DNA of 60,019 bases from Halobellus captivus (lineage in GTDB: Archaea > Halobacteriota > Halobacteria > Halobacteriales > Haloferacaceae). The position numbers and the translations under genes were made by a program. The stretch lies in assembly GCF_007655485.1 (NCBI RefSeq), contig NZ_VJXQ01000001.1, forward strand, positions 106,437 through 166,455, in the 5' to 3' direction. Below are positions 1,621 through 49,490 of this stretch, one piece after another (positions within the stretch are counted from its first letter, which is position 1; every line of letters begins with the position of its first letter). The notes under the pieces are model-generated. The model ran no database searches, was not told the origin of the DNA, and was given only the letters and a program-made list of their open reading frames with translations.

Positions 1621-1661
1621 CGTGGTTTCCTCGTTCGTGACCGTCTTTGCCGCGGTCGCTG

Positions 1662-27147: not shown

Positions 27148-28120
27148 GGCCAGATCCCGATGACTCGACCAACTTGTAGTGCTCTAGCGACTGGAGGTAT
27201 TTCCGACGAGTTGATCTCACCCTCGGATCCGCAACGCGATCCTCGTATCGAGCGTGCAACGTCGACGCGTCGATCTCACTCGCGTCCTTGATGATCTCGT
27301 AGAGGTGTCGTTGATGCGTCCCGAGTGTGTCGACGTGGCGCTCGTGGATCTCCTCGCGGGCGTCCTCACGAATCGGGACGACGTGCTGAACAGTCAGCTT
27401 CTCGTCTCCCTTCTCGACGGCCTCACGGACCGCACGTCTGAGCAGCGTGATCGCGTGGCGGGCGTCCCCGGCGGCGACATCGGCGATGTACTCGACGGCC
27501 TCCTCGTCGACGACGCCCGACGCGAGTCCCGTGTTGATCCGACTCCAGAGAATTTCGACGAGCTCCTCGTGTTGGTACTTCGAGAGTGAGACCGTCGCCG
27601 CGCCGCGGATCCGAGACGCGACGCGGGAGTCCAGGTCTGCAAAGAAATCGTCGTCGTCGACGCAGATTAGGATCAGCGTGAGGTTCGGGATCTCCCAGAG
27701 CGCTTGGATCGTTTGGTCGTCATCGAGGACGTCGACCTCATCGACGATCGCGATGAAATGGTCGTCGAGATGGCGGAGGCGATCGAACATTACACCCGTC
27801 GGCGTCCCCTTCGCCCGGAGATCGTTACCGCGGCCAGCATCGCGTACAAGTGAGAAGACGACCGACGACATCGAGGTTTCGGAGATCGCGTTCACGTACC
27901 CCCAGCGGATCCCGAGGACCTCTTGTTCGAGCTGGCGAACGATGTACTTCGCGATCGTCGTCTTCCCGGCTCCAGAGGGGCCAGTGATAAGAATCGCTTC
28001 CGCGCCGAGACCGTGTACAATCGGCTTCAACTCGCCGGAGAGATGTTGTAGTGAGCCTTCGCGATGCTTGAGTTCTTGGGGGACCCAGTCCTCCCTTAGG
28101 ACGCGGGCGTTTTGAATCAC
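27116..28120 (-). CDS. orc1: Orc1/Cdc6-family replication initiator
   Basis: 334 residues, shorter than chromosomal copies and typical of plasmid or viral paralogues. The AAA+ ATPase has Walker A G-P-S-G-A-G-K-T (residues 47-54) and Walker B I-A-I-V-D-E-V-D (123-130), followed by R-I-R-G-A-A-T-V-S-L and G-D-A-R-H-A-I-T-L-L. The C-terminal ~90 residues form the winged-helix DNA-binding domain. It should recognise the element's origin and load the host helicase, suggesting the element can replicate as a circle when excised. Upstream (28121-28249) is an AT-rich gap. Confidence 0.93.
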   Translation of the reverse strand: MIQNARVLREDWVPQELKHREGSLQHLSGELKPIVHGLGAEAILITGPSGAGKTTIAKYIVRQLEQEVLGIRWGYVNAISETSMSSVVFSLVRDAGRGNDLRAKGTPTGVMFDRLRHLDDHFIAIVDEVDVLDDDQTIQALWEIPNLTLILICVDDDDFFADLDSRVASRIRGAATVSLSKYQHEELVEILWSRINTGLASGVVDEEAVEYIADVAAGDARHAITLLRRAVREAVEKGDEKLTVQHVVPIREDAREEIHERHVDTLGTHQRHLYEIIKDASEIDASTLHARYEDRVADPRVRSTRRKYLQSLEHYKLVESSGSGRGRAYRFSEP

Positions 28121-32271: not shown

Positions 32272-32553
32272 TCAGTCCGCGGTCTCCGGTCGGATTCCCT
32301 CGTTGAACAGACGCTGGGCGGCGAGCCGCTCGACGATCTCGGAGTTTTGGAGCTCGGGGAGATCGCCCTCGTCGGTGATCCGGACCGAGTACGTTCGTCG
32401 ACCGAGCCGCTCGACGCTCACTTGAACATCGGGGATTTCGCCGTCCTCGAGGACGTCGTCCTGTTTCAGGAACGACTTCGGGATCGTGACGAGACCGGAA
32501 CCGCTGTCTTTTCTGAGTTTCTGCATAGCCGTCGGCTGACGACCTCCTGTCAT
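32272..32553 (-). CDS. AbrB/SpoVT-like DNA-binding protein
   Basis: 93 residues, or 84 from the internal ATG 32526. The motif S-G-S-G-L-V-T-I-P-K-S-F-L near residue 18 is the swapped-hairpin AbrB/MazE signature, followed by D-V-Q-V-S-V-E-R-L-G and S-V-R-I-T-D-E-G. Such proteins bind DNA as dimers, as regulators or antitoxins; no toxin is adjacent. It is divergent from the membrane-particle operon, so it is a candidate regulator of that operon acting at the inverted repeat 32633-32663. Confidence 0.75.
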   Translation of the reverse strand: MTGGRQPTAMQKLRKDSGSGLVTIPKSFLKQDDVLEDGEIPDVQVSVERLGRRTYSVRITDEGDLPELQNSEIVERLAAQRLFNEGIRPETAD

Positions 32554-32632: not shown

Positions 32633-32663
32633 CTCTATCGGTCGAAGGATTCGACCGATAGAG
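32633..32663. promoter_or_regulatory. Perfect 13-bp inverted repeat before the surface-protein operon
   Basis: CTCTATCGGTCGA and TCGACCGATAGAG (32633-32645, 32651-32663) are exact reverse complements around a 5-base centre. The site lies between the AbrB-like gene and the first gene of the membrane-particle operon. It fits a dimeric repressor operator, or an mRNA hairpin if transcription starts upstream. Confidence 0.65.
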
Positions 32664-32667: not shown

Positions 32668-32742
32668 ATGCACGGGACCAGACGGGGTGAGCCCCTGACC
32701 GAGACCGACCGAGGCGAACAGACAGACGCGGGGCGGCCGTGA
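32668..32742 (+). CDS. Possible 24-codon leader peptide
   Basis: A short open frame (M-H-G-T-R-R-G-E-P-L ...) begins five bases after the 13-bp inverted repeat. Its TGA (32740-32742) overlaps the GTG at 32739 that opens the spike-like gene. The arrangement could couple translation of the large gene to the leader. Evidence is positional only; the peptide has no recognisable sequence. Confidence 0.25.
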   Translation: MHGTRRGEPLTETDRGEQTDAGRP

Positions 32743-34517
32743 CCTGGAGACCGACCGGGATCGTGGTCGGCGAGGCGTTCTCCGACTACGTCGCACGACT
32801 CCGAGAGACGTACAAGCACGCCGCGGACGGCGGAAACGTCCATTCTATCGAACCTATGCCAGAAACACACACTGACGACGAACAGACGCAGGACTACCGC
32901 GACGCCTTCCTCGAGGCCGCCCATTACGCGCGCCCGGAAGCCGTCGACTTCGCGATCCCCTCGCTCTCGATCAACCAGCCGATGACCCGGAGGACGTTCC
33001 TCTACGGAGTCGGCGCGGCCGCCGCGACAGCCGCGACCGCGGGTGTCGGAGCCGCACAGTCGGATGCCGTGCCGAACTTCGACAGCGAGTACACGCCGAT
33101 CCCGCACGTCGAGGGCGCACAGTTCCGCGTGGGAGAGCACGACGCGAGCGATATGGGCGCGCTCGACTACGTGGACAACGACGGCAACGTCCAGTCGTTC
33201 ACCGACGAATTCGGCGCGGTGCTCGCGCCGGACCCGGAGGACGAGGACGAGCCGCACAACCCGGTCGGCTTCCATCCGAGCCGAATCCAGACCGAGGAGT
33301 ACACCGCGTTTCCGCGGGGCGAGACGTACGACGACGGCGACGACGAGGACGCGCCCGTTCGCGCCGTCGACTCGACGCACTGGTCGACCGACGAGGCGGA
33401 CACGTCCGGCTCGATCACGGTCGAGGACGCGGACGATGACGCGCTCTCGATCTCGACGAGCGGGCAGGGATCGGGCGACGTCGCTTCGGCGACGTTCTCG
33501 GACTTCGAGATCGGAAGCGGCGAAGCGCGAAAGACGATCCAACTCGTTCTCGATATCGATCAGCTCGAGGCGGGCGCGGTCGTCGACGTGAACGTCGTCG
33601 ACGCGAGCGGTTCATCGGTGACGGCGTCGATCGATCCGGACGCAGACGAGGCGGACGATTCGACGATCGCGATCGAACAGGGGAGCGGGATCGTCTATCA
33701 GACGGAGATCGGCGAGCTCGACGGCGGGACCGATCTCGACACGCTCGACGAGCTGATCGTGGAGGTTTCCGAGGCGAACGCGGAGCTGACGATCCACGGG
33801 ATCAACCTCGAGCTCGATTCCGAATGGTCGTTCGGAACGCGGGAGACGTACGATTCCGAGGACGAGGAGATCCAAACCGAGACGCTCGTCGAGCCCGCGG
33901 GGATGACGTGGATCACGTCGCTCTCCTCGCTCACCGAACAGTTCGGCGACGCGACGATCGTCGATCTCGAGTACGAGGTCGAAGTGCGCGCCGACGAGGC
34001 CCCGCTCTCGAACTGGGAGATCGAAGTCTCCGACGTCGAGCGGAGCGAGGAGACGAAGAAGTACCACCTCGTCGGCGGCCTCGAGATCCCGGGCGGGCTC
34101 TACGAGGTCGAAGTCGTCGAGCCGGGAACGCTGGTCGACGAGGTGCGTCACCCCGACTCGGTCTACCAATCCGTCGAGTATGCACACGACCTCTCGGAAC
34201 TGCCGACGATCGACGAGGTCGACAACGTCGAGTGGACGGACGCGACGAGCGTCCTCGAGGACGGAGACAGTGACTCGGAGGTGGAGATCTCGACGACGGT
34301 CACGGCGGGCGATACGATCGGCCTGAACTACGACCTTCGCGAGGGCGAGCAGATCGTGAACGCGATGGTCGGTTCCTCCGGCGGCGGTGGAGCCGCACCC
34401 GCATCCGGTGGCGGGTTCATGTCCTCGATTTGGGGGTGGGTCACCGCGGGAGTGACGGGAATCCTCGGAGCGATCGGGATCGCTTCGTGGATCTCCTCGG
34501 ACGATACGGGGGCGTAG
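32739..34517 (+). CDS. Tat-exported, membrane-anchored spike-like protein
   Basis: Up to 592 residues. A twin-arginine signal is internal (M-T-R-R-T-F-L-Y-G, residues 82-90, then an alanine-rich core and cleavage near A-A-Q), preceded by ~80 acidic residues with good codon use. Alternative starts are ATG 32856 and ATG 32982. The long exported part is acidic and beta-rich with no enzyme motif. It ends in a Gly/Ala/Ser-rich linker and one hydrophobic helix (W-V-T-A-G-V-T-G-I-L-G-A-I-G-I-A) with a few terminal residues, so it is displayed outside and anchored at its C-terminus. This layout recalls pleolipovirus VP4 spikes. It heads the coupled operon, one base before the next gene. Confidence 0.75.
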   Translation: MTWRPTGIVVGEAFSDYVARLRETYKHAADGGNVHSIEPMPETHTDDEQTQDYRDAFLEAAHYARPEAVDFAIPSLSINQPMTRRTFLYGVGAAAATAATAGVGAAQSDAVPNFDSEYTPIPHVEGAQFRVGEHDASDMGALDYVDNDGNVQSFTDEFGAVLAPDPEDEDEPHNPVGFHPSRIQTEEYTAFPRGETYDDGDDEDAPVRAVDSTHWSTDEADTSGSITVEDADDDALSISTSGQGSGDVASATFSDFEIGSGEARKTIQLVLDIDQLEAGAVVDVNVVDASGSSVTASIDPDADEADDSTIAIEQGSGIVYQTEIGELDGGTDLDTLDELIVEVSEANAELTIHGINLELDSEWSFGTRETYDSEDEEIQTETLVEPAGMTWITSLSSLTEQFGDATIVDLEYEVEVRADEAPLSNWEIEVSDVERSEETKKYHLVGGLEIPGGLYEVEVVEPGTLVDEVRHPDSVYQSVEYAHDLSELPTIDEVDNVEWTDATSVLEDGDSDSEVEISTTVTAGDTIGLNYDLREGEQIVNAMVGSSGGGGAAPASGGGFMSSIWGWVTAGVTGILGAIGIASWISSDDTGA

Positions 34518-34940
34518 ATGTCGTCGAGTGACGACTACACCGCTTCGGACGCACTCGAGGACGGGACGGAAGGCGTCGACGAGCGGGGAGTTCCTGGGTA
34601 TGCTCAAGCCGCGGTGATCGGTGGGATTCTCGCCTCACTCGGCTATGCGATCTCGGACCTGATCCTCTCGGTTCAGGGAACGCTGTTCGCTCCCGTGCGG
34701 GCCTTCGCGGATGGTATGGCGACGTTCATCGGAGGGACGCTCGGCGCGCCGATCCTGATCACCGACGCGGGCGCGGAAACCTCAGCGAGTTCCTTCACGA
34801 GCGGGACAGCGGCGCTACTCGGACCGGCCGCGTTCCCGGTGGCGGTGGCCGTCTCTGTCGCCGGGATCCTCGTGTTCCTGTGGTTCCTCTCGAACAACTC
34901 GATCACGCCGTGGTCGATTCTGGGAGACGAGGACGAGTAA
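34518..34940 (+). CDS. Small membrane protein, paralogue 1
   Basis: 140 residues with a polar acidic N-terminus (~28 residues) and hydrophobic segments at about 29-52, 55-85 and 105-128. The end L-L-G-P-A-A-F-P-V-A-V-A-V-S-V is shared with the next gene product (L-F-G-P-A-A-F-P-V-A-V-L-V-A), and both carry an L-x-G-A-P loop, so the two arose by tandem duplication. It starts directly after the spike-like stop. A matrix or membrane role in a particle is inferred. Confidence 0.7.
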   Translation: MSSSDDYTASDALEDGTEGVDERGVPGYAQAAVIGGILASLGYAISDLILSVQGTLFAPVRAFADGMATFIGGTLGAPILITDAGAETSASSFTSGTAALLGPAAFPVAVAVSVAGILVFLWFLSNNSITPWSILGDEDE

Positions 34941-34942
34941 CG

Positions 34943-35299
34943 ATGAGCGGAGCCGACACCAGCGAGATCGAAGACGACTACACCGACGGCGGGAGCGTCC
35001 TGTGGGGAGATCTCGCGACAGGCATCGCCGGGATCGGGATCGCGGTGTTGGCGTACGCGTACGCCTCGGTGATCGGGCTCCTTCGTGACGGGGTGACCGG
35101 ATTCGTCGACGGGATCGGCTCGTGGTACGCGTCGCTCGTCGGCGCGCCGTTCGACGCGGGGACCGAACAGTTCGACCGGGCGGCACAGATGGCCGCCGAC
35201 GGGCTCTCGCTGTTCGGACCGGCAGCGTTCCCGGTCGCGGTCCTCGTCGCGATCGCGATGGTCACTCTCGTCCTGTGGGGGGTGAGTCGGTATGTCTAG
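34943..35299 (+). CDS. Small membrane protein, paralogue 2
   Basis: 118 residues; acidic N-terminus, hydrophobic segments at about 22-48 and 93-115, and the G-P-A-A-F-P-V-A-V motif shared with its upstream neighbour. The start ATG 34943 follows the previous stop by two bases; a longer reading from 34880 overlaps the neighbour and is rejected. Its 3' end overlaps the next start (35292). Unknown family; coupled operon member. Confidence 0.7.
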   Translation: MSGADTSEIEDDYTDGGSVLWGDLATGIAGIGIAVLAYAYASVIGLLRDGVTGFVDGIGSWYASLVGAPFDAGTEQFDRAAQMAADGLSLFGPAAFPVAVLVAIAMVTLVLWGVSRYV

Positions 35300-35705
35300 T
35301 TCGAACCGTCTCGTCCCCGATTCCGAGGAGGTCGCCGAGAACAACGGCACGGCCGACGATGACGGCGGACTCATCGAGAGTGAAGTCCGGAAGATCGTCG
35401 CGGGTGTCATCGCCACGGGAGTGCTCTCGCTGTTCGCTACGATCGCCGGATTCGGTATCGACATCATCGACACGATCAGGACGTCGCTGACGTCGGCCGG
35501 AGCGGGGATCGCGAGCGAGGCCGGATCGATCGGTTCGATGATCGTGGAGGTCGTGATCGAGACGCCGATCGAATCGACCGGCGATCTCGCCACGTCGACG
35601 TGGATCTTCGCGCCGATCTCCTCGGCGCTGGTCTTCGCGCTCGTCGCCGCGATATCGGCGGGCACGGTCTACCTGACGTGGCGGGCAATCGTGGTGATAA
35701 TATGA
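35292..35705 (+). CDS. Small two- or three-pass membrane protein
   Basis: 137 residues. After a ~30-residue acidic tail come hydrophobic segments at about 36-60, 65-90 and 108-136. No conserved enzyme residues. It overlaps its upstream neighbour by 8 bases and its downstream neighbour by 4, so the genes are translationally coupled. Not recognised. Confidence 0.7.
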   Translation: MSSSNRLVPDSEEVAENNGTADDDGGLIESEVRKIVAGVIATGVLSLFATIAGFGIDIIDTIRTSLTSAGAGIASEAGSIGSMIVEVVIETPIESTGDLATSTWIFAPISSALVFALVAAISAGTVYLTWRAIVVII

Positions 35706-35992
35706 GCGCCCGTGACGGCCTCGGAGCGCTCTCCGTCGGCGGGACGTTCGCGGCGGCCGCTGATCTCGTGGTTAACGGCGGGGACGTCCTCGTGTTGCTC
35801 GCGACGTTCCTCCTCGATCAGTCGGGGCTCATCTATCTCCTGGTGGCGCGGCTCTCGGCGGCGGCTCCGAACGTGTCCTGGCTTCCGGCCGGAACGCTCG
35901 AGGCGGCGTCGACGGCGATCGCACTGTTCACCGCGGTTTACGCGCTGTATCGACTCACAAATAGATTCACGGACAGATTCGACGATGACTAA
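35702..35992 (+). CDS. Small membrane protein
   Basis: 96 residues with hydrophobic stretches at about 10-45 (possibly two helices) and 62-82, and a charged C-terminus R-F-T-D-R-F-D-D-D. ATGA overlap with the gene before it. Not recognised; part of the surface-protein operon. Confidence 0.68.
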   Translation: MSARDGLGALSVGGTFAAAADLVVNGGDVLVLLATFLLDQSGLIYLLVARLSAAAPNVSWLPAGTLEAASTAIALFTAVYALYRLTNRFTDRFDDD

Positions 35993-36049
35993 GCACAACA
36001 CCCAGAGCGGTGCACAGATCCCTCCGGATGCGGGGCGGAGGAGAGACAG

Positions 36050-36421
36050 ATGATCGGATACGGCGCGATCTCGACGATCGCAGTGATCGTGGGATTCGGT
36101 GCCTTCGTCGGGGTAGTCGGGCTGTGGCTCCTGAACTACCGACGAACGGAGGACGCGACCCGGGCGACCGACCGGACCTCTCGGAAGGTGATCGGCGTGA
36201 TCTCGGCGGCGGTGTTCGCGATCGTGATCGCCTTCTCGAATCTCGCGGGGCTCTTCGGTGTCCTCGGGGACATCGTCTCGACGTGGCCGGGAGCGGTCGG
36301 TCAGTTCGTCCTCGCCACGCTCGCGGTCGCGGGCTTCGCCGGATACGTCGAGATGGGTGTCGTCGCAGGGACGATACTCGTGCTCGCGATCATCGCCGGA
36401 ACCGCCGCGGTACGGAATTAA
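36050..36421 (+). CDS. Small four-pass membrane protein
   Basis: 123 residues with four hydrophobic segments (about 5-28, 47-66, 66-90, 95-120) and only one longer charged loop (Y-R-R-T-E-D-A-T-R-A-T-D-R). Size and topology resemble pleolipovirus VP3-type internal membrane proteins, but I see no sequence signature proving it. The 57-base gap before it is the largest inside the operon; the next gene begins two bases after its stop. Confidence 0.7.
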   Translation: MIGYGAISTIAVIVGFGAFVGVVGLWLLNYRRTEDATRATDRTSRKVIGVISAAVFAIVIAFSNLAGLFGVLGDIVSTWPGAVGQFVLATLAVAGFAGYVEMGVVAGTILVLAIIAGTAAVRN

Positions 36422-36422
36422 G

Positions 36423-38162
36423 ATGACGGGAACCTCTCGCGGCGTCGTCGTCGCGATGGTGGTGGTCGCTCTCCTCGCGGTCGCCGCGGGAGCGACGGGC
36501 GTCGCCGCCCAGAACGGGACCAACAACTCGTCGACGAACGCGACGGCACAGACGGGGCCGTACGAGCTTGAGGAGCTTCGGTCGTGGGGCGTCCGCGGCT
36601 CGGAGGCGGCACCGCCGTCAGTCCGCCGCTACGGCGACGGGCAGCTATGGCTCAGATACGCGCCCGCCTCGATCGGCGGCAACCCCGACGACTCGCAGAC
36701 GTACCAATATCTCACGAAAGGCACGACGATCAAGCGCGACGAGGTCTACCTCGGCGGGTTCATCGGCTGGGGTGCGAACGAGGAGCTCGACGTCACGATC
36801 GTCTACTGGAATGACGGAGAGCAGCGCGTCGAGGACGACGAGGGGAACGTCCGGTACGTACCGGCGGCGGTCGATCAGACCGTCGACGAGACGAGCGTGA
36901 CGCTCTCCGGCGGGTACGCCGAGGAGGCGATCGAACTGCGCCCGAGTTACGACGAGGCGCGGCACGTGACGATGTTCGTTGAGGGCGAGGAGGGCTCGGC
37001 GACGTGGCGCTTCGACGTCAAAACCTCGCCGACCGCCGAGCCCGTCAACGTCGACACGGCGGGCGATCTCGCGCTATGGGCGGTCGGTTTTCTGATCCTC
37101 ACGCTGGTCCTCACGCTCGCGTTGATGAAGATCGCGCATCGGTGGCACGAGCGAGCCGGGAAGGGGCCGGGCTATCCGATCTGGCTCTACCTCGCCGGGG
37201 TCGTCCCTGTCGGCTTTATGACGCTGATGCTCGGCTACCGGAACGTACTCGATACGATCGCACAAGCGCCGTGGATCCTCGTCCCGGGCGTCGCGCTGTT
37301 CGCGACGATCGCGGCGATCAACTGGTGGGGAGACGACACCGAGCGCGTCGGCATAATCCACGTCGATCTGACCTCCCCGCAGGCGAACGAGGACGGATCC
37401 GGGGAGATCCCGGTCAACGTGCGCACGTATGAGATCGCCGAGGTCGGCGGTGTCCGTGGCCTCGTCGTCAACGGGATCACGCCGTACCTCGCCCGGGCTC
37501 GAGGAGCGATCCCCGAGCTTCGGCTGTTCTGTATGGGCGAGGAGCGAACGAGCGACCCGAGCCTCGAGTTCTCCGGCGGGACGGGGATTTTCGATACGAT
37601 CTACTTCGCGGACCCGTTCGACGAGGATCCGCTCACCGTCGAGCGTGAGGGGTGGTCGTTGAGCCACCTCTACGACGCTCCGGAGATCGATCCTGAAGCG
37701 TCGACGGTCGACCGAGTGGCCGTACACGCGAGCTCGATCGCGTGGGAGAAGATCATCCCGGCGATCGGGATCGTCGCGGCCGGGTGGATTCTCGGCGGCG
37801 CACTCGCGGCCTCCGGCGCGATCGGGGCGCTCGTCGCGCTCCTCCCGGCCGGGATGTGGGTGGGGCGTCCGATTAAGGGCCGCGCGGAGTGGCACGTCGC
37901 GCCGTCGTCGTTCGGCTCGGTGATCGTCTCGCTCATCAACGCGACCGAGCAACTCGAGGAGGTCGCCGACCGCGACTACTTCAAATCGAAGTATCAGGAA
38001 GAGCTCGGGAAGAACGTCGCCGAGCGCAAGAAGACGAAAGAGGAGACGGAGCTCGGGAAGTTCGACGAGGTGTTGTCAGCGATCGAGGAGGGCAACCCCG
38101 AGAGCCTCTCCGAGGCGATCGACGACGCCGACGTCTCCGGAGGTGCGACGGCGGATGACTAA
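36423..38162 (+). CDS. Large membrane protein with extracellular and cytoplasmic domains
   Basis: 579 residues. An N-terminal signal peptide (M-T-G-T-S-R-G-V-V-V-A, cleaved near A-A-Q-N) leads to an exported beta-rich domain of about 170 residues with N-x-S/T sequons. A cluster of hydrophobic helices follows at about 218-240, 258-278 and 285-305, then a soluble domain (about 315-440), another hydrophobic pair near 445-485, and a charged helical C-terminus (K-N-V-A-E-R-K-K-T-K-E-E-T). The start at 36423 replaces an upstream open frame that overlaps another gene. Resembles the multi-domain membrane protein next to the spike and ATPase in pleolipovirus-like clusters (inference). Overlaps the next gene by 8 bases. 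Confidence 0.72.
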   Translation: MTGTSRGVVVAMVVVALLAVAAGATGVAAQNGTNNSSTNATAQTGPYELEELRSWGVRGSEAAPPSVRRYGDGQLWLRYAPASIGGNPDDSQTYQYLTKGTTIKRDEVYLGGFIGWGANEELDVTIVYWNDGEQRVEDDEGNVRYVPAAVDQTVDETSVTLSGGYAEEAIELRPSYDEARHVTMFVEGEEGSATWRFDVKTSPTAEPVNVDTAGDLALWAVGFLILTLVLTLALMKIAHRWHERAGKGPGYPIWLYLAGVVPVGFMTLMLGYRNVLDTIAQAPWILVPGVALFATIAAINWWGDDTERVGIIHVDLTSPQANEDGSGEIPVNVRTYEIAEVGGVRGLVVNGITPYLARARGAIPELRLFCMGEERTSDPSLEFSGGTGIFDTIYFADPFDEDPLTVEREGWSLSHLYDAPEIDPEASTVDRVAVHASSIAWEKIIPAIGIVAAGWILGGALAASGAIGALVALLPAGMWVGRPIKGRAEWHVAPSSFGSVIVSLINATEQLEEVADRDYFKSKYQEELGKNVAERKKTKEETELGKFDEVLSAIEEGNPESLSEAIDDADVSGGATADD

Positions 38163-39015
38163 CGCGATCACGTGGGGCGTCGATCCCGACGTCGACGAGG
38201 ACTCGGACGCGGGGACGTCACCGAGAATCGATCCGCCGAGCTTCAACAAACCCACGCGCCCGGCGCTCGAAACGCTCTCGCGGGATCAACGTGAGCTCCT
38301 CCGATCGTGGCTCGCGGGCTTCGCCGATCGGGCCGGTCTCCTCCGGTGGTGCCACGAGGCGACGATCGCGACGCTCGGACAGCTCCCGCCGGAGTGGCAT
38401 CGAGACCGCTTGATGTCGCTCTCGGAGCTGACGACGCTGGTCGTCGTCGACGCGGAACGGGAGCGGTGGCTCGACCAGGACGCGCTTCTCGACGCGGAGC
38501 GGGCTCGGGAGTGGCGGCTCGCGGTCGCGTCGAGTGACCTGATCCCCGCGTGTCAGACGGCGCTTCGTCGGATCCGGTGGTCAGCCGTGGAGTACACGAG
38601 CGACCACGACGACGACAACCCGGCGTACGTCGACGTCGCCGACCAGGACGAACCCGCGATGCGGCCGGGGCTCGGAGAGACGGCGACGCGTCAGCGGTGG
38701 GTGATCGAGCGCGGGCTCGCGGGCTTCGACTCCCGAGACGAGATCGTCGAGAGCTGGATCCCGGTCGCGATCCACGCCTCGTTTGGCGAGCTCGACGAGA
38801 GCCTCGCGTCGGCGTTCTGGTCGGAGCGACCGCTCCGTGCGATGTTCGTCGATCGCGACGACCCGGCCGCTCAGTTCTACCGCGAGTCGTTCCTCGCGCT
38901 CGAGTTCTTACCCGCGTTCAATGCGGCCGTCGAACAGCTCGCAGACCGCGCCGGAGAGGCTGTCTCCGGCGGAGAGAAAACCGACCACAGTCCAGCGAAG
39001 TACCCGACCCGATGA
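38155..39015 (+). CDS. Cytoplasmic protein coupled to the operon ATPase
   Basis: 286 residues, soluble, helix-rich and acidic with many W and R residues. Two internal segments look alike (L-R-S-W-L-A-G-F-A-D-R-A-G-L near residue 46, and V-I-E-R-G-L-A-G-F-D-S-R-D-E-I near 183), hinting at a duplicated helical domain. It has no signal or membrane helix. It overlaps genes on both sides, and its ATGA junction with the ATPase suggests a partner or adaptor. Not recognised. Confidence 0.68.
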   Translation: MTNAITWGVDPDVDEDSDAGTSPRIDPPSFNKPTRPALETLSRDQRELLRSWLAGFADRAGLLRWCHEATIATLGQLPPEWHRDRLMSLSELTTLVVVDAERERWLDQDALLDAERAREWRLAVASSDLIPACQTALRRIRWSAVEYTSDHDDDNPAYVDVADQDEPAMRPGLGETATRQRWVIERGLAGFDSRDEIVESWIPVAIHASFGELDESLASAFWSERPLRAMFVDRDDPAAQFYRESFLALEFLPAFNAAVEQLADRAGEAVSGGEKTDHSPAKYPTR

Positions 39016-40400
39016 GCAAAGCACTACACTCCGCGTTTCGCGCGGTCACGACCGAGTCGGAGATTCGAGACCAGCTCTCTCGAGTGTTCGACTTCCACGA
39101 GAAAAGCGCGCAGGCGTACGGAGACGCCACGCTGAACCGACACAACGACGGGCAAGACATCTACAAGGATCTCGGGATCGCGCCGTTTCACAAGTACCTC
39201 GCGCTCAACGAACGCGAGGGAAAGAACGTCGCGACGTTCCCGAGTGCGTGGGTGACGCCGCTGGTCCACCTCAAGGGCCGCGAGATCGACCTCGTCGAGT
39301 CGTTGGCCGGAGAGGTGGACTACGACCCGCAAAACCCGCACCCGTCACACGAGGCACTCGAGGACTTCTCGCGGCCTCGGGCGAAGGTGCTCGAATGGAT
39401 CGCCGACGACGACGGCGATCGGACCGGGTTCAAAGCTCAGGGGAAGCGGACGATCGACGCGTGGACCGCGGGCGGGACCGACTACTTAGCGTACGGGAAA
39501 CCGGGGAGCGGCAAGTCGACGCTGATGGACTTCACCGCGGCCGTGCTTCAACAAGTCAACAACGAGACGGTGCTCCTCGCGGACACGCTCGACGACTCCG
39601 GAACGAACGAGCGCGCCGAGTGGCTCCCCCTCGCGCCGTGGACGACGATCGCGATCCCGGCGGGGATCCCCGTCGAGGTCCGGATCGTTCCGGAAGCGCC
39701 GGAGGTCTCCTCGTTCACGATCGACCTCGAGGAGATATGTCGCGACGTCGTTCGCTACTCCTCTCCGGTCGATCTCCTCGGCCAGCTCGTCGAGGGTCAG
39801 TTCTACGTGGTGTTCCCGGATCCGCTCCACCGCGGTTGTGAGGACGTCTCTCGCTATTCCTTCCACGGACCGGAGCGAGTGACGCCGGTGGGAGAGCCGG
39901 GACCGAGCTCGCCGACTCCGGCAAACCAGTGGTGGTTTGCGTTCGTCCAGGCGCGGATCAAGCGCGACATCTTCGCTCACTGGACGTCGATCCTCTTCGA
40001 CGAGGCGGGGAACCTCTTCGATCCGGACGCGGAGAAGGACGAGCACGACGAGTATCAGAAGATCCGCCAATGGGCGAAGGACTTCGCGGACGCGCGCAAA
40101 AAGGGCGTGAGCGTGTTCACGTACGCTCACGCGCTGAGCGAGGTCTCGCACTTCTTCCGAGCGAAACAGCGCTGGTGGGTCACGATGAACGGCGCGACGC
40201 CGCCGGTCGGGAAGTCGCTCCCGGGCGACAAGTCGTGTCCGATCCCGACGACGCGCTACTCGCGACAGATGGAAAGCGGCGAGGCGCTCGTCTGGAATTC
40301 GACGAACTACGCTTCGATCAACTGGCCGAACATCAAGCGGGGTGCGCGGCTCGACGCGGAGGTTTCGATCGATTTCGATCTCGAGGCGGTGGGGCTATGA
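39012..40400 (+). CDS. P-loop ATPase of the surface-protein operon
   Basis: 462 residues. Walker A G-K-P-G-S-G-K-S-T at residues 162-170 and Walker B S-I-L-F-D-E-A-G near 325-332, with a ~160-residue N-terminal region and an R-Q-W-A-K-D-F-A-D-A-R-K-K segment after Walker B. The arrangement resembles HerA/FtsK/VirD4-like pumping ATPases and the NTPase found beside spike genes in pleolipoviruses. It could drive DNA into a budding particle or power assembly. ATGA overlaps on both sides tie it to the membrane proteins. The sub-family cannot be fixed by eye. Confidence 0.85.
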   Translation: MSKALHSAFRAVTTESEIRDQLSRVFDFHEKSAQAYGDATLNRHNDGQDIYKDLGIAPFHKYLALNEREGKNVATFPSAWVTPLVHLKGREIDLVESLAGEVDYDPQNPHPSHEALEDFSRPRAKVLEWIADDDGDRTGFKAQGKRTIDAWTAGGTDYLAYGKPGSGKSTLMDFTAAVLQQVNNETVLLADTLDDSGTNERAEWLPLAPWTTIAIPAGIPVEVRIVPEAPEVSSFTIDLEEICRDVVRYSSPVDLLGQLVEGQFYVVFPDPLHRGCEDVSRYSFHGPERVTPVGEPGPSSPTPANQWWFAFVQARIKRDIFAHWTSILFDEAGNLFDPDAEKDEHDEYQKIRQWAKDFADARKKGVSVFTYAHALSEVSHFFRAKQRWWVTMNGATPPVGKSLPGDKSCPIPTTRYSRQMESGEALVWNSTNYASINWPNIKRGARLDAEVSIDFDLEAVGL

Positions 40401-40615
40401 TTGATTTCGAAATTCGATTTTTCGAGAGAAAATCGAAAAAGAACGATCGAACCCGTGGGTCGAGATCGGGATCCACACCTCTCGCGGCTGACAGACCGAT
40501 CGCGAGCGCGCGATCCGAGCGCCTCGCACGCGCGCGTAGCTTCAACTACTACGCCGACCACCCCCCTACCCCCCTGAATAGCGACGTCGGCGAACGATTC
40601 GGTGATATGATATGA
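40397..40615 (+). CDS. Small basic protein between ATPase and adhesin
   Basis: 72 residues, strikingly rich in R, K and S in an acidic proteome (F-F-E-R-K-S-K-K-N-D-R-T-R-G-S-R-S-G). It starts at ATG 40397 overlapping the ATPase stop, and its own stop overlaps ATG 40612. The double coupling favours a real gene, perhaps a nucleic-acid-binding peptide, though a non-functional bridge between neighbours is possible. Confidence 0.55.
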   Translation: MIDFEIRFFERKSKKNDRTRGSRSGSTPLAADRPIASARSERLARARSFNYYADHPPTPLNSDVGERFGDMI

Positions 40616-43479
40616 CAGACTCAAAGAGATTCATCGCGACGCTTCTCGCGTCGTTGATCGTGGTTTCGAGTCTCGGCGGCGTCGCGATCTCGCCAGCCGG
40701 AGCAACGAACAGCGGACCCGCGGGGATGCTCGCGCTCGGGGACGCGCAGGTGTCCGAGGACATAGCCGCGGGCGCTGACGTGCCTATCCGCGCGAGCGAC
40801 CTCGAGGGCGCGATTTACGCGAGCGAGCACGCGAGCACGCTCGAGGTCGTGCTCACGACGCCCGAGCGGGCGGACGAGTATATGGGCGAGAACGCGAGCG
40901 TGCTCGCGGACGACGAGATCGCGATCGTCCTCCGTGACGACGAAGTCCACGAGGGCCGCGACGTCGCCGTCGACCTTGACGTCCTCGAGGCCGGAGTCGG
41001 GTTCGTGCCGAAGGTCGCGTACGGGACGCACGAGGACGGGGAGCGCTGGGAATCGGCGATCGAGCGCGACGGGATGGTCGGAACCTTCCACGTGCCGCAC
41101 TTCTCGACTAATACGGTCTCGTTCACGGGCGGCGTCTCGATCAACGCGAGCCCAGCCACAGACGGTTCGACTTTCGAGTACGAGCTCTCGGACATCAATG
41201 CGGTGAGTGATCCGATGATAAATTTGACAGGGAATACCACAACGGAGAACGAGTCTGTGTCGGGATCTGTGTCGATCGGAGATCCCTTTACCGTGGATGT
41301 TGAGGGCAATGCCGATCCGGAGGGACATACGATGCCGGATTCTCAAATCTCCGTAACCGGCGGGACCGTCTCGGAACGCATCGCAACGGACACACAGGGA
41401 TCGGTTACCATAGATTCCTCGGAGGTTAGTTTTGACTCGCTCGGACGTGTCTCTGGGGATCTTTTCGTGACTGGGGGATCCTGCAAGTGTGACGCGAGTG
41501 ATGTAACTATTACACTGTCCGTCGATGGGACTCAAGTCGCGTCGAACAGTTGGGAGAAAGTTTACGATGGACAGTATGAGATTGGCTATCCGGAATACGA
41601 TGGTGGCGTGGGTTTCGGTTTTGATGTTCCGGATGAACACCAAGATTTTGACTCGGCAACGGTTTCCTACTCGTTGGACAACCCACCGTCAGAAGACTAT
41701 TACCCTCAATTTACGGTTAATGGGGTATCAACTGCTCCGGATAACGTCGCTGTCTCTGTCAATGGACTAGAAAGCGCCTCTCTCGGCGACCTTGACGATG
41801 GAGAGACAAAGACCACGGCGCTCGATTTGTCGACAGGTAGTAACGATATCAATATCACGGGATCGGTGGGAACAGTCGATTACACGCTTGATTATATAGA
41901 AAGGACTGTTACGGAAAATCCCACAGTCGAACTTAACGGCGAGACCGTCTCGCACTCGGGAACACTCTCCGATGGCGAAACGACTACTCTATCGCTCGAT
42001 TCGTCGGCACTCGAGGAGGGAACGAACCGAATCAATGTCTCTGTCGGCGACGGTACACTCTCCGATGGTTCACCAGATCCGAGCGTCGGGCTTGAGTACA
42101 GCCACGAGGCCACCGACGAGCAAACCGTCGACTACTCCGCGGAAGCGTGGAGCGAGCGCTACAACGTCTCGCACACGTTCGGCGATGCGAGAGAGGATCC
42201 GACACTGACGATCCCGTTCGACGGCGAGGTAGTCAATATTGGTTCCGTAGAGGTCCGCCGAAACGGTTCCTCTTGGGAGCTCCCGAAAGAGTGGGTTCAC
42301 GACAATACGACGCTGATCGTCGGCTTCGATCCCGTCGAGAGCTCGGAAACGCTCGAGGTCCGGGCGACCGGTCGGAAGGTCCGAACGCTGAACGGTGAGA
42401 TCACGGTCACCGACCCGACCGTCGAGGGCGACTCGCTCAACTCGGAGATTGAGATCATAGACCGCTCGGAGGACTTCGCGATCGACGTCTCCGGATCGGA
42501 CCGGATTCACTACACGTCAGAAGAGTCCTGGTCGGCCTCCCCACACGTCATCGTCGACTCCTCGGGAGGTCAGGAGCTCCGACTCCCTGATGCGTCGGAG
42601 GGCTCAACAACGCGCGTGCGTACGGCTCCGCTCAACGTGGTTCCCGAGTCGGGCGAGTCGGAGGTCGTGATCGAAGATCCCGACGAGCCGCGGTTCAAGA
42701 TCCGCGAGGGCAACACGACCGGCGCGTCGAACGTCGACGTGACCTATTACGACACGCTCTCCGGTGAGCGCTACGTTCTGTGGAGCGAGACCCAGGATCG
42801 AGAGATCGACGCCGACCGAGCGGAGAGCCCGGTCGACTTCACGACGGACGGGAACGCCGAGACGTACACGATCCGGCAGATGGACGCACCTGGTTCCGGA
42901 GTCGGTGGCACCGCTCCACCCCGGACTCAACAAGCTGGCGCGCCGCTCGTGTTGGTCGTTCCGGCCGTGGGTCTCTCCGTGACGGGGCTCTTTTGTGCCG
43001 GACGTCGGTTCGGCGGCGCGAGCGGGATTCGAGGGAACGCGCTGCTCCTCGTCGGCTCGACAGTCGTCGCGATCGCCGCCGTCGAGCTCGTTGCGCCGGG
43101 CACGCTCTCGTCGATGTTCTCGACAGTCGTGTTCGCGGTCGGGGACTCGATCGCGGGCGGGATCGGAGCGGCCTTCGCCGCGATCGCGGTGTTCCTTGCA
43201 CTCTGGCAGATCCAAGCCCGGACCCGGGCGACAATCCCGTGGTGGGTGATCGGTCCCGCGATGGGGATCTCAGCGATCGCCGCGCTCGAGGCGATCCGAC
43301 CGGGATCGATTCTCGGGGCGCTCGAAGTCGTGCTCTCGGAGTACGGCGGGCTCGTCGTCCTGGCGACCATCGGGCTCGTCGGGTATCTGATCTACCAGCG
43401 GCGACAGACCGCACAAGCCGAGGCGTCGACGCCGGATACCCAGGTCACGCTTGATCTGAGCGGGAACAGCGAGGAGTGA
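40612..43479 (+). CDS. Giant adhesin-like membrane protein
   Basis: 955 residues. A signal peptide (M-T-D-S-K-R-F-I-A-T-L-L-A-S-L, cleaved after A-G-A) precedes a ~740-residue exported, acidic, beta-sandwich-like region with many N-x-S/T sequons. A T-A-P-P-R-T-Q linker leads to about five C-terminal hydrophobic helices (residues of roughly 778-800, 810-830, 850-875, 885-905, 915-932). Codons for about residues 200-500 (41.2-42.1 kb) are clearly lower in GC and less acidic than the ends, as if the middle had been exchanged. A C-K-C pair lies near residue 295. Probably a receptor-binding or S-layer-interacting protein on the cell or particle (inference). Confidence 0.78.
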   Translation: MTDSKRFIATLLASLIVVSSLGGVAISPAGATNSGPAGMLALGDAQVSEDIAAGADVPIRASDLEGAIYASEHASTLEVVLTTPERADEYMGENASVLADDEIAIVLRDDEVHEGRDVAVDLDVLEAGVGFVPKVAYGTHEDGERWESAIERDGMVGTFHVPHFSTNTVSFTGGVSINASPATDGSTFEYELSDINAVSDPMINLTGNTTTENESVSGSVSIGDPFTVDVEGNADPEGHTMPDSQISVTGGTVSERIATDTQGSVTIDSSEVSFDSLGRVSGDLFVTGGSCKCDASDVTITLSVDGTQVASNSWEKVYDGQYEIGYPEYDGGVGFGFDVPDEHQDFDSATVSYSLDNPPSEDYYPQFTVNGVSTAPDNVAVSVNGLESASLGDLDDGETKTTALDLSTGSNDINITGSVGTVDYTLDYIERTVTENPTVELNGETVSHSGTLSDGETTTLSLDSSALEEGTNRINVSVGDGTLSDGSPDPSVGLEYSHEATDEQTVDYSAEAWSERYNVSHTFGDAREDPTLTIPFDGEVVNIGSVEVRRNGSSWELPKEWVHDNTTLIVGFDPVESSETLEVRATGRKVRTLNGEITVTDPTVEGDSLNSEIEIIDRSEDFAIDVSGSDRIHYTSEESWSASPHVIVDSSGGQELRLPDASEGSTTRVRTAPLNVVPESGESEVVIEDPDEPRFKIREGNTTGASNVDVTYYDTLSGERYVLWSETQDREIDADRAESPVDFTTDGNAETYTIRQMDAPGSGVGGTAPPRTQQAGAPLVLVVPAVGLSVTGLFCAGRRFGGASGIRGNALLLVGSTVVAIAAVELVAPGTLSSMFSTVVFAVGDSIAGGIGAAFAAIAVFLALWQIQARTRATIPWWVIGPAMGISAIAALEAIRPGSILGALEVVLSEYGGLVVLATIGLVGYLIYQRRQTAQAEASTPDTQVTLDLSGNSEE

Positions 43480-43481
43480 GG

Positions 43482-43799
43482 ATGTCCGCGATCATCGAGG
43501 CCCTTCGTATCCTCGGGCTCCGGGGGAGCGCTATCGGGGCCGCCTCGCTGGTTCTCGTGGCGTTCTATCTGTGGCGGGCGAAACGGATCGGCTCGCGCGC
43601 GGCGACGATGAGCGCGGCCGCGATCGCGTACTCGGTGGCGAGCCTGGTCGTGCTCGCGCTCGTACTCGCGCTCGGATGGGCGGACCCAAACCCGGGTGTG
43701 GCTATGGAGCACGTACGCGAAGGCGCTTCGGTCGCGATCGAGCGCGGAACCGAGCCCGCGCGCCGCGTGTTCCGGTGGGTCGTGGAGATACTGTTCTAA
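43482..43799 (+). CDS. Small membrane protein closing the surface-protein operon
   Basis: 105 residues from ATG 43482, with a GGAGTGAGG ribosome-binding sequence just upstream. Two hydrophobic helices at about 18-32 and 45-66, then an amphipathic tail ending R-V-F-R-W-V-V-E-I-L-F. Starts two bases after the adhesin stop and is the last gene of the run. Not recognised. Confidence 0.68.
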   Translation: MSAIIEALRILGLRGSAIGAASLVLVAFYLWRAKRIGSRAATMSAAAIAYSVASLVVLALVLALGWADPNPGVAMEHVREGASVAIERGTEPARRVFRWVVEILF

Positions 43800-45309: not shown

Positions 45310-45349
45310 GTTTCAAATAGAGGGTCGAATTTTTGCGCAGCCGCAGGGG
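45310..45349. repeat. Left direct repeat flanking the GIY-YIG gene
   Basis: This 40-base segment recurs at 45743-45783. The last 25 bases, beginning TCGAATTTTTGCGCAGCCGC and ending GGGG, are identical; the first part (GTTTCAA...) is near-identical with one inserted base. The copies enclose exactly the GIY-YIG gene. Confidence 0.75.
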
Positions 45350-45742: not shown

Positions 45743-45783
45743 GTTTCAACTGAAGGGTTCGAATTTTTGCGCAGCCGCAGGGG
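45743..45783. repeat. Right direct repeat flanking the GIY-YIG gene
   Basis: Partner of 45310-45349, 20 bases after the nuclease gene's stop. Collapsing the two copies into one would give a continuous stretch without the gene. Confidence 0.75.
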
Positions 45784-45807: not shown

Positions 45808-45878
45808 GAGTCTTTTGGACTCGTGGCCTTAGCCACACGTTCTAACGGACGATCGGCCTCCCCCCGGCCGATCGTCCG
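45808..45878. other. Three consecutive hairpins in a non-coding stretch
   Basis: GAGTC-TTTTG-GACTC (45808-45822), GTGGC-CTTA-GCCAC (45823-45836) and a perfect 13-bp stem CGGACGATCGGCC/GGCCGATCGTCCG with a TCCCCCC loop (45846-45878) follow one another within 71 bases. No gene overlaps them (45723-46011 is non-coding). They could be an RNA, a transcription end for the operon at 46012 read from the minus strand, or a single-stranded replication or transfer site. Confidence 0.6.
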
Positions 45879-46011: not shown

Positions 46012-47769
46012 CTACTCGGTGACGTCGTCGATCACCCTCCGACGTCGGGCGTCACAGAGCTCATCCAGCGGGCGGCCGTGTCGTTCTTGAGCGAGCTGCT
46101 CGGCGTCCTCCACCCAGTCGGGCTTACTCACTTCTCGCGTCGTCTTCGCCGCTGACGGTCGCCACGAATCGAGGTTCGTGATTCGACGGCGTTCCCCGTC
46201 GATCGTCGTCACCTCCAGGGCGAACCGACGGATCGAACGGTACCGCTCGCGAGCGGCGAGCCGAATCGACCGAATAACCTCGGCCAGATCCTCGCGATCT
46301 TCGGGACGGTACCCGACTTCGAGCGTCTGTTTCACCTTCCCCTCGCTGATGCTCACGTTGTAACGTTGCTTGACCTCAGACCACTTCGAGCGCGCCCGGT
46401 CCTCCACGGCGTCCGCGGCGTTCATCACCGCGTGCTCGACGCTCTCGCGGAACTGTGATTCCGCAGTCCGAACCCGCTTGAGGAGCATCTGCTCTTTGTG
46501 CTTCGAGTCGATGCTCAGCCCGTCGTAGGCATCGCGAACGACGTCCTCACAGCGGTTCACGAACCGGCGAACCGTGCGATACGAGTAGCCCGTCCGATCG
46601 GCGAGCTCGTCCCGCGTGGGACGACCACCGTCGGATATGAGTGAGTCAATAAGATCCCGGTCCGATTCGAGCGTGTTTCCCCAGAGACGCATCACGACGT
46701 GCTCTTGTTCGTCCTCGACGTCGGGCAACGGACATTCAACGAGCTTCACCGATCGGTGCGACTCCGACGTGGCAGAGAAATACTCGTCTGTAACGAATAC
46801 GTCGCCGTCCGCTCGAACGGGAAGGTCCGCCCAGTCGAGATAGTTGTAGAGCGTCGTATCGAGCTCTCGAACCGCTTGGTCAAGCTCACTCCATCGAAGC
46901 GTTTCGTCCGTTCGCTTCGTCTGATAGGAGACTTCGAGCTTCGGGTGATACAGCGCGTCGCCGGGTTCGAACGACGAGGGATCCTCGGGGTAGTAGTGTT
47001 TGATCTCCTTGCCGAGCTGGTGGCCGGGAATGATGTCCCGGGCCCGCTCGTCGTCGACGGTCGTGGTCACGAAGTAGCCCGGAATCTTCGTGTGGTCTTC
47101 GACGTGCTTCCGGTATCCCTGCTGACCGGCCTCGAGCACCGCGTGGGTGCGGGCGATCGGACCATCCGCGGCGTGCAGCGGGCTCGACTTCGAGCGGTGC
47201 ACGCGAACGTAGCGGGCGAGGTCGATGACGTTGCTCATCTCGTGCGGCTTCTCGAAATACCGATACGAGACACCGAACGCGGCCATTGCCGTTTTCACGA
47301 GCTCGAGATATCGCGAGTGTTCGATGTTCGACGCTTGTACCTGAACGTCGATGTACGGCTTTCCGAGGTCGGGTACTCCCTGAATCTTCTTGCCGTCCTT
47401 CGTCATCCCGGGCCACCGAGGCCGAATCGTCATCGTCCCTCCACGAACGCGCTTAGACTTTTGCGCTGGTTCTCCGTCGTACAGTCCGTCCTTCGCGACG
47501 AAGTAGATCCGGAAGAGCGGGACCGACTCCATTCGGTAACTCTCGTGGTCCCACGGATCGACCGGTTGTTGATCGTAGTCCGCGGCGAGCGCCCAACTCT
47601 GGCCTAAGAAATCCATCGTCTCGGTCGGCTTTCCCTCGGTTTTCCAGTCGTCGTACTGAACGCGGATCACCGAGTTGAGCGCGTAGTAGGGATCTAACCC
47701 GTCCTCGTCGAAAACAAAGTGAATATCGGCCTCGTGAGATTGCGGCTCGACGAACTCCCCCGTAGTCAT
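46012..47769 (-). CDS. DUF7845-like element protein with helix-turn-helix
   Basis: 585 residues. The N-terminal ~330 (starting M-T-T-G-E-F-V-E-P-Q-S-H-E-A-D-I-H-F-V-F-D) match what I know as DUF7845, a family almost confined to haloarchaeal plasmids and proviruses. A helix-turn-helix follows near residues 385-425 (T-R-D-E-L-A-D-R-T-G-Y-S-Y-R-T-V-R-R-F-V). The C-terminus is helical and basic. No nuclease or helicase motif is seen; a replication or segregation role is plausible. It overlaps the DUF488 gene upstream by 4 bases. Confidence 0.72.
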   Translation of the reverse strand: MTTGEFVEPQSHEADIHFVFDEDGLDPYYALNSVIRVQYDDWKTEGKPTETMDFLGQSWALAADYDQQPVDPWDHESYRMESVPLFRIYFVAKDGLYDGEPAQKSKRVRGGTMTIRPRWPGMTKDGKKIQGVPDLGKPYIDVQVQASNIEHSRYLELVKTAMAAFGVSYRYFEKPHEMSNVIDLARYVRVHRSKSSPLHAADGPIARTHAVLEAGQQGYRKHVEDHTKIPGYFVTTTVDDERARDIIPGHQLGKEIKHYYPEDPSSFEPGDALYHPKLEVSYQTKRTDETLRWSELDQAVRELDTTLYNYLDWADLPVRADGDVFVTDEYFSATSESHRSVKLVECPLPDVEDEQEHVVMRLWGNTLESDRDLIDSLISDGGRPTRDELADRTGYSYRTVRRFVNRCEDVVRDAYDGLSIDSKHKEQMLLKRVRTAESQFRESVEHAVMNAADAVEDRARSKWSEVKQRYNVSISEGKVKQTLEVGYRPEDREDLAEVIRSIRLAARERYRSIRRFALEVTTIDGERRRITNLDSWRPSAAKTTREVSKPDWVEDAEQLAQERHGRPLDELCDARRRRVIDDVTE

Positions 47770-48386
47770 CGGATCTCACTACCTGACCGTCGGGGATCGT
47801 GACCGAGGACGTCGACGAGCGTACCGAGACCGTACCCGCAGTTCACGCAGACCTTCGTGTACGGCGCTGGTCCGTCGACGAGCTCGTGTTCGCCGGGATC
47901 ACACGCGACCTCGTCGACGCGATGGCCCGGATACTCGTTCTCCTTCGGTGGGAGTGAGACGTCGGTCGAGAACGTCACGGTGCGGGCGTCCTGTAGCCGT
48001 TGTCGGAGGAGTCGACGGTGACACCACCGATCGGACGCTTCCCAGCAGACGAGCCACACGGCGCGCTGTGCGGCTTCCTGTTCGACCGCTTCGAGAACTT
48101 GTTGCGTCGGACCCTTCTCGAGATACTCGTGAAACCGAGCCTCGAAGTCGACACTCTTCCACGCGACGCGACGAGGTTCCTCGTGACCGTCTCGGTCGGC
48201 GGCCTCCTCGACTTTCTTGTAGGAGTCCAGGAGATCGTCCGGCGGCGCGAGCGTCGGGACGTGACGGTCGACGAGCTCCTCCGCCCAATCGGGAAGATCG
48301 CGACGGACGACCGCGAGTACCTTCGACTCGGGAGCGGGCTCGTCGTAGCCGTTCGCCAGCGCCGAGAAGTACGTCGTTCGGATCAC
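47766..48386 (-). CDS. DUF488-family protein with zinc-binding tail
   Basis: 206 residues. The core V-W-L-V-C-W-E-A-S-D-R-W-C-H-R-R-L-L near residue 110 is the DUF488 signature with its C-x-E ... C-H-R residues. The C-terminus adds C-D-P-G-E-H ... C-V-N-C-G-Y-G, a likely zinc knuckle. DUF488 members are suspected nucleic-acid-associated enzymes but have no agreed activity. Overlaps both neighbours by 4 bases in a minus-strand operon. Confidence 0.78.
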   Translation of the reverse strand: MIRTTYFSALANGYDEPAPESKVLAVVRRDLPDWAEELVDRHVPTLAPPDDLLDSYKKVEEAADRDGHEEPRRVAWKSVDFEARFHEYLEKGPTQQVLEAVEQEAAQRAVWLVCWEASDRWCHRRLLRQRLQDARTVTFSTDVSLPPKENEYPGHRVDEVACDPGEHELVDGPAPYTKVCVNCGYGLGTLVDVLGHDPRRSGSEIR

Positions 48387-48904
48387 CGACCGTCACCCCC
48401 GAGGCGGTCGAAGACGTGCGTCCAGGAGAGCCGAGCGAGCGTTCCCTCCGAGCGGTCGATCGAGTACCAGCGATCACGGAGGAGCTCGTCGACGATCGAC
48501 GCGGGGACCACGGCGACGGCCAAGAGCTCGCGGTCTCCGTCGACGTCGTCGTAGACCGACAGCGCGTAGTAGGCACTCGCCTCGAGGAGCTTTGCGTGCT
48601 GTCCGTCGTCGCGACCTTTGAACAGCCACCGTCCCGCGATCGTTTGATCGCCGCCGTTGGACGTCCGGCGCTTCGCGCTCTTCGTCTCGATCTCGGTGCC
48701 GACCTCGAGGAGCGGGACGCCGAACCGGATCGGGAGATCACCGGCGACGGTGTCGGGAGCGAGGACGCTGGTGGTGACCGCGTCGTAGTAGGCGTCGGAA
48801 TCGTCGGCGACGCGAACGGGGCCGAGTGCGTCGACGACTCGGAACTCGACGTCGACGCCGATCTCTTTCGCTCGGGCGACCCGCGGTGAGACCTCGGTGC
48901 TCAA
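48383..48904 (-). CDS. Hypothetical protein, possible PD-(D/E)XK nuclease fold
   Basis: 173 residues, no signal or membrane helix. The segment G-V-P-L-L-E-V-G-T-E-I-E-T-K-S-A-K contains an ExK pair, followed by G-R-W-L-F-K-G ... H-A-K-L-L-E-A-S-A-Y-Y-A-L, an order compatible with a PD-(D/E)XK nuclease core (strand with E-x-K, then helix). The family is not recognised and catalytic assignment is speculative. ATGA overlap with the DUF488 gene. Confidence 0.6.
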   Translation of the reverse strand: MSTEVSPRVARAKEIGVDVEFRVVDALGPVRVADDSDAYYDAVTTSVLAPDTVAGDLPIRFGVPLLEVGTEIETKSAKRRTSNGGDQTIAGRWLFKGRDDGQHAKLLEASAYYALSVYDDVDGDRELLAVAVVPASIVDELLRDRWYSIDRSEGTLARLSWTHVFDRLGGDGR

Positions 48905-48944
48905 CGTGGATCACCTCCATAGGAGCGGCCGGTTCCGTTGGGAG

Positions 48945-49463: not shown

Positions 49464-49490
49464 TCACTTCGGAATAATCGCGTGGGTCGG

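Follow-up and report, generated by a model that had tools for sequence, protein, structure and literature searches.

The element and its integration site

The window, i.e., the whole stretch of 60,019 nt analyzed here, is haloarchaeal chromosomal DNA of a Halobellus-like genome and contains an integrated element of 27.6 kb (21782-49401), inserted at the 3′-end of a tRNA-Arg gene. The operon that is our subject (32739-43799) forms its core (Table 1). The limits of the element follow from the att core GGGCGCTGCAGG, of which the window has exactly two copies, one next to the integrase gene (at 21784) and one at the tRNA-Arg. The initial annotation had missed that the operon is part of an element bounded by an integrase, a tRNA-Arg att pair and a replication module. 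Other cargo of the element includes a D12 methyltransferase gene and a DUF6884 gene.

In Halobellus rarus this tRNA is occupied by a close relative of the element, with matches to 41904-43787 and 47791-49506 at 79-82%. Loci fetched from eight genomes of the same genus keep homology on the tRNA side and differ in the DNA downstream of the tRNA. The left flank of the window has no synteny with the genus relatives, and the site comparison covers the tRNA side only.

Three further observations concern the surroundings. A lipoprotein-gene segment (49464-51470) lies between the tRNA-Arg and the conserved backbone of the genus and is absent from all eight same-genus loci; it is a second insertion at the same tRNA-Arg, on its upstream side. 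Within the element, a 28-bp direct repeat (45322-45349 and 45756-45783; 27/28 identical), which contains the tRNA-like GGTTCGAAT, flanks 0.43 kb of inserted DNA with a GIY-YIG/DUF7508 ORF, in appearance a very small homing or transposed unit. Finally, two neighboring proteins encoded at 151-3076 have similar heads (RRKxLxxxGxxGxASAGAGLGTSALFSDTESFENN) and resemble SipW/TasA-like exported proteins.

Table 1. Features of the element, in the coordinates of the window.
Feature	Coordinates	Strand	Remarks
Distal att copy ATGGGCGCTGCAGG	21782-21795		Continues the 3′-end of tRNA-Arg imperfectly; its 12-mer core occurs exactly twice in the window
Tyrosine integrase, 352 aa	21847-22905	-	Phage_int_SAM_1 E=6e-5, Phage_integrase E=0.004
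Orc1/Cdc6-like protein	27116-28120	-	Cdc6_lid 2e-13; many sibling loci have a homologue
Small divergent protein, 93 aa, candidate regulator	32272-32553	-	AbrB-like by sequence; adjoins the operon in several sibling loci
Perfect palindrome, 14-bp arms, candidate operator	32633-32663		Just upstream of the operon
Surface protein, 592 aa	32739-34517	+	Tat signal, beta-rich ectodomain, predicted carbohydrate-binding-like fold, C-terminal TM
m140, two-helix membrane protein	34518-34940	+	Candidate particle subunit; paralogous to m120 and m137
m120, two-helix membrane protein	34943-35299	+	Paralogue of m140 and m137
m137, membrane protein	35292-35705	+	Paralogue of m120 (90.6%)
m96, conserved small membrane protein	35702-35992	+	Not paralogous to m140/m120/m137
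m123, small four-TM membrane protein	36050-36421	+	Slot varies between relatives
M579	36423-38162	+	Signal peptide, ectodomain, about five further TM segments, cytosolic tail
s286, soluble protein	38155-39015	+	Homologous genes also on pNG300 and in sibling loci
HerA/B204/VirB4-type P-loop ATPase, 462 aa	39012-40400	+	Fold and profile matches
Spacer between ATPase and A955 (initially a 'basic peptide')	40401-40611		Probably noncoding
A955, large modular surface protein	40612-43479	+	N-terminal signal, several C-terminal TM segments
m107, small membrane protein	43482-43799	+	A small TM protein follows A955 in most loci
Hairpin, 13-bp arms, 7-nt loop, candidate replication origin	45846-45878		About 134 nt downstream of rep
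Rep-Arvir (DUF7845) rolling-circle initiator	46012-47769	-	PF25227 E=3e-112; KHYY motif intact
tRNA-Arg (tcg)	49388-49463	-	tRNA-side att copy at its 3′-end

Layout of the operon

For comparison, 20 sibling loci were fetched around the better matches to the ATPase. They share the order 592-type protein, small membrane proteins, M579, s286 and ATPase, followed in most by A955; we refer to this set as the module.

The operon had been described as eleven genes that overlap or abut. The tandem arrangement on the + strand holds, with successive gaps of 0, 2, -8, -4, 57, 1, -8, -4, 211 and 2 nt, but the gap of 211 nt is a spacer that had been filled with a 'basic peptide' (40397-40614). Against H. 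rarus this reading frame differs 12, 22 and 20 times at the three codon positions (32, 22 and 113 times in the ATPase gene). The pattern is not that of a coding sequence and the peptide was rejected as a gene; the stretch is probably an untranslated spacer. It is 75% conserved with H. rarus and open in one frame, with the coding signature missing. A spacer of 111-458 nt separates ATPase and A955 in every locus with that gene order; a promoter or a packaging signal may lie in it. The other genes of the initial list are all there: five small membrane proteins, the 579-residue protein with its signal and TM segments, the soluble 286-residue protein, the P-loop ATPase, the surface protein of 955 residues and, at the end, one more small membrane protein.

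The palindrome upstream of the operon is the strongest hairpin in the 60 kb and is a candidate operator of the divergent AbrB-like gene, whose product is without a Pfam match. The motif ATCGGYCG..CGRCCGAT is also found 5′ of the operon in two sibling loci (L035 and L047), the other loci being without it, and has no occurrence in a 153-kb control.

Surface and membrane proteins

The 592-residue protein has a homologue in 20/20 sibling loci. Its proposed Tat export is borne out by a match to TIGR01409 (residues 83-105) above the curated cut-off. Most of its homologues have Sec-type signals, so Tat export is not general in the family. One locus (L047) has a separate small ORF for the cytosolic N-terminal part. 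Part of the predicted model, which is only of moderate quality (pLDDT 63), resembles in Foldseek carbohydrate-binding and tail-fiber domains, including the HFTV1 turret; a glycan-binding fold is predicted. The second large surface protein, A955, has a homologue in 17/20 sibling loci; in two loci its place is a different one, and in the remaining three no homologue was found. The length of full-length homologues ranges from 896 to 1303 aa, and FG-GAP repeats are present in one of them, as expected for a receptor-binding or adhesive protein. In thermococcal spindle-shaped viruses, two lectin proteins with TM helices belong to the core (PMC12934983).

Profile comparison of these short hydrophobic proteins identifies m140, m120 and m137 as tandem paralogous two-helix proteins (m140-m120, 98.2% over 117 columns; m120-m137, 90.6%; m140-m137, 77.1%). 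The negative controls, i.e., m96, m123 and unrelated small membrane proteins, do not match them. The paralogues bear acidic soluble extensions. Searches with the small membrane proteins of PHROG and of solved structures gave no meaningful E-value.

M579 has a homologue in all the sibling loci and in pNG300, and found no match in Pfam or the PDB. A resemblance to ORF23 of pHTUR05 (44% with a single sequence) shrank to the signal peptide under a profile of the ORF23 family (30 sequences), whose best matches are signal peptides only, and was rejected. In the family consensus of s286 an internal repeat is apparent in our reading of the alignment. PDB profile searches with the surface and membrane proteins returned nothing significant, and Pfam, PHROG and NCBIfam provided no useful name for the proteins of the module.

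The ATPase

The AlphaFold model of the ATPase is good (pLDDT 84, pTM 0.88) and its Foldseek matches are HerA, the packaging ATPase B204 of STIV2 (TM by target at most 0.70) and VirB4. The protein is a DNA translocase of the HerA/B204/VirB4 type. Its nearest relative, in H. rarus, is 91% identical. It matches PHROG 22963 (profile length 373) at E=6e-12, a group that may include ORF375 of PAV1. The ATPase of plasmid pTN2 is matched at 98.8% over 274 columns by profile, and by tblastn as well. The pTN2 gene has been equated with ORF375 of the spindle-shaped virus PAV1 (PMC3543421). This places the ATPase in the PAV1/pTN2 ORF375-type family, the link being direct to pTN2 and through the published equation to PAV1.

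Replication

DUF7845 is now recognized as Rep-Arvir, a rolling-circle initiator (PMC13107129). The Rep of the element is 43-47% identical to those of SNJ2 and HHPV3 (47% to the latter), and the KHYY motif, site of the catalytic tyrosine, is intact. SNJ2 has an essential origin hairpin downstream of its rep, and the hairpin of the element is likewise placed 3′ of rep. DUF7845 Reps are present also in PAV1 and the lemon-shaped LSV-48N; Rep-Arvir is an exchangeable module, common to other kinds of element too.

Distribution and mobility

Homologues of the ATPase are found in 69/391 sampled genomes of the class, or about one in six of the haloarchaeal species sampled, although the weak matches need not all come with a whole operon. 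The module is often flanked by an AbrB-like gene, Orc1, DUF7845 or short integrases. Two circular Haloarcula plasmids, pNG300 and pNYT2, carry homologues of M579, s286, the ATPase and A955 together with similar small membrane proteins, and keep the gene order only in part. On these plasmids the module is interrupted by a gene for an AAA/MCM-like ATPase (35979-37928 in L057, the pNG300 locus; annotated as MCM on pNYT2), which separates s286 from the translocase ATPase.

Within the genus the ATPase match is patchy (4/13 sampled genomes). The ATPase tree is discordant with the host families: the same-genus sequence of L042 groups with two other families, apart from the ATPase of the window with full support. 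The module therefore moves between hosts. Among IMG/VR viral contigs no relative was found with the ATPase, either as a single sequence or as a profile.

What the operon may build

The reading we prefer, and hold with middling confidence, is that the operon serves a haloarchaeal element, which integrates and replicates, as its module for particle formation and DNA transfer. It probably builds a membrane particle, virus-like or vesicle-like. We count in its favor the limits of the element, conservation across the 20 loci, the plasmids, the host-discordant tree, the kinship of the ATPase with B204 and pTN2, the three paralogues with their controls, the two TM-anchored surface proteins, and the DUF7845 Rep found in PAV1 and LSV-48N. 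We count against it that the small proteins have no detectable profile homology to SSV1 VP3, His1 ORF21 or LSV-48N proteins, nor to PHROG or solved structures at a meaningful E-value, that no relative was found among the IMG/VR viral contigs, and that the paralogy comes from profiles of short hydrophobic proteins. A further point against it is that conjugation, too, is driven by ATPases of the HerA fold, and vesicle plasmids are reported to have them. Known capsid proteins have no match in the module. In favor of the reading, the scan of the element's proteins against Pfam and NCBIfam revealed no relaxase, coupling protein, terminase, portal, or HK97 or jelly-roll capsid. The earlier description stands in so far as the element is mobile, its gene set is membrane-particle-like, and a capsid, portal, terminase or tail gene is not recognizable.

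By analogy with spindle-shaped viruses (PMC12934983), we infer a spindle-virus-like membrane-particle module, and the particle's formation, shape, packaging and receptor binding are to be read in that light. What the sequence itself shows is the gene order, the limits of the element, its mobility across hosts, the class of the ATPase and its kinship to pTN2, the paralogy of three small proteins and the identity of the Rep. The integrase would insert the element at the tRNA-Arg and also excise it. Rep-Arvir (with Orc1) would replicate the circle, probably in rolling-circle mode with the hairpin 3′ of rep as its start. The three paralogues, acting capsid-like as do the hydrophobic hairpin proteins of spindle-shaped viruses, would shape the cell membrane into a particle with m96, m107 and M579. 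The ATPase, possibly docked to M579 via s286, would pump DNA into the budding particle. The anchored 592-residue (predicted glycan-binding) and 955-residue (modular) proteins would bind the next host.

More tentatively, the element may represent a new and widespread haloarchaeal family of membrane-particle viruses (or infectious plasmids), having a packaging ATPase related to the PAV1 type, a three-paralogue shell of its own, a membrane docking protein with a soluble adaptor, and glycan-binding and modular surface proteins. There is a fair chance that the module is a new virus family. The openly accessible literature that was searched contains no description of it, and the suggestion of an undescribed subtype agrees with our finding that it fits none of the described ones found there. 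If the particles are made, a common route of haloarchaeal gene transfer has been overlooked so far, and plasmids, vesicles and spindle-shaped viruses would have in the element an intermediate that can be tested.

A different outcome, unlikely but deserving serious thought, is a pR1SE-like plasmid-vesicle system made from unrelated proteins, where membrane vesicles are loaded with DNA and no ordered virion forms. Many element-coded membrane and surface proteins with a single DNA translocase would suit it, as would the presence of the module on circular plasmids and the similar unexplained core of pT26-2 plasmids. The apHPV ATPase, ORF25, is VirB4/HerA/STIV2-like in structure (PMC10818511), the same class as here. 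On the other hand, no S8 serine peptidase (ORF7 of apHPV) was found in the operon, neither the apHPV core proteins of pHTUR05, with the cluster of ORF6, 8 and 9, nor the ORF23 family have profile homology to the module, and the tandem set of three paralogues is more suggestive of an ordered shell. The kinship to pR1SE-type vesicle plasmids proposed initially was given up on these profiles.

Rather improbable is contact-dependent DNA transfer by a reduced type IV secretion or conjugation system, with an ATPase akin to VirB4/VirD4, the two-helix proteins as pilins, M579 as the channel and A955 as the adhesin. The VirB4 fold match and the several TM segments of M579 would be in keeping with it, and m140 and m120 have a weak, insignificant profile match (E ~0.5) to 74-residue pilins. 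However, there is one ATPase and no recognized second one, the Pfam and NCBIfam matches of the scanned proteins include no relaxase and no T4SS component at a credible score, the paralogues bear acidic extensions, and a pair of large modular surface proteins is not what conjugation systems usually have.

It is very improbable that a cellular secretion or surface-structure operon lies in the island by chance. Secretion systems, too, typically have membrane and surface proteins and a single ATPase, but this operon sits in an att-bounded element with integrase, Orc1 and Rep. Conservation at a fixed chromosomal site without mobile genes, which the initial annotation had named as speaking against its reading, is countered by the integrase, the att repeat, the tRNA site, the plasmid relatives, the patchy distribution and the transfer between host families; vertical conservation at a fixed locus was not seen.

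Scarcely credible, finally, is membership of the pleolipovirus lineage, with its VP3/VP4/ORF6/ORF7/VP8 module: the surface protein, membrane proteins and ATPase stand in an order that recalls it and the Rep with its downstream hairpin is of the betapleolipovirus type, but the Rep is exchangeable, and with profiles built from 11 pleolipoviruses VP4 gave 0.7% each with the 592- and 955-residue families, ORF7 had no match in the module, ORF6 matched only the N-terminal signal-peptide region, the others, VP3 among them, reached about 5% or less, and VP8 matched the ATPase at 73% over 56 columns only (vs. 274 columns to pTN2).

Comparison with known systems

We return to the particle module and its nearest parallels. 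Pleolipoviridae (HRPV-1, HRPV-6, HHPV-3, SNJ2) and AvPV1 are alike in their SNJ2/HHPV3-type Rep, a structural set of membrane proteins only and one ATPase. They differ in that here there is no VP4 fusogen and no ORF7, and the ATPase is of another branch. The 592-residue protein, once called a spike, is not VP4-like by profile, and no VP4-like structure is among the fold matches listed, which include carbohydrate-binding folds. The kinship to these viruses suggested initially was rejected on VP4, ORF7 and VP8.

The apHPV (pR1SE-like) plasmids also encode membrane and surface proteins, a HerA/VirB4-type ATPase, and Orc1 or MCM replication genes, whereas the module has a smaller core, in which the S8 peptidase and the homologous core proteins are missing. 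Beyond the general class of DNA motor, the module has no detectable homology to pleolipoviruses or plasmid vesicles.

The lemon-shaped LSV-48N of Haloferax is, like the element, haloarchaeal and integrating, with Rep-Arvir, an Orc1-like protein, and small membrane and large surface proteins, but its structural module is not homologous by profile search. Structural kinship was rejected: the Rep is the one convincing match, next to which there is a P-loop similarity to its Orc. The pT26-2 plasmid family can be likened by description: it has a core of membrane proteins and a B204/VirB4-like ATPase and integrates in the chromosome (PMC6972569).

The tests on the defining proteins of pleolipoviruses and apHPV were negative. 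With spindle-shaped viruses the kinship of the ATPase and the architecture agree, but the profiles of SSV1 VP3 and His1 ORF21 revealed no capsid homology. We therefore do not file the module in any of these families. PAV1/'Osirisviridae' and the pTN2-like Thermococcales plasmids share with it the ATPase family, the DUF7845 Rep, small hydrophobic helical membrane proteins and two TM-anchored modular surface proteins. The module differs in being haloarchaeal and integrated at tRNA-Arg, and M579 and s286 are without a known counterpart. In sum, the ATPase held in common with pTN2, and by publication with PAV1 ORF375, is a better lead than kinship to pleolipoviruses or pR1SE; if the new-family reading is true, it would link spindle-virus-like elements of hyperthermophiles and halophiles.
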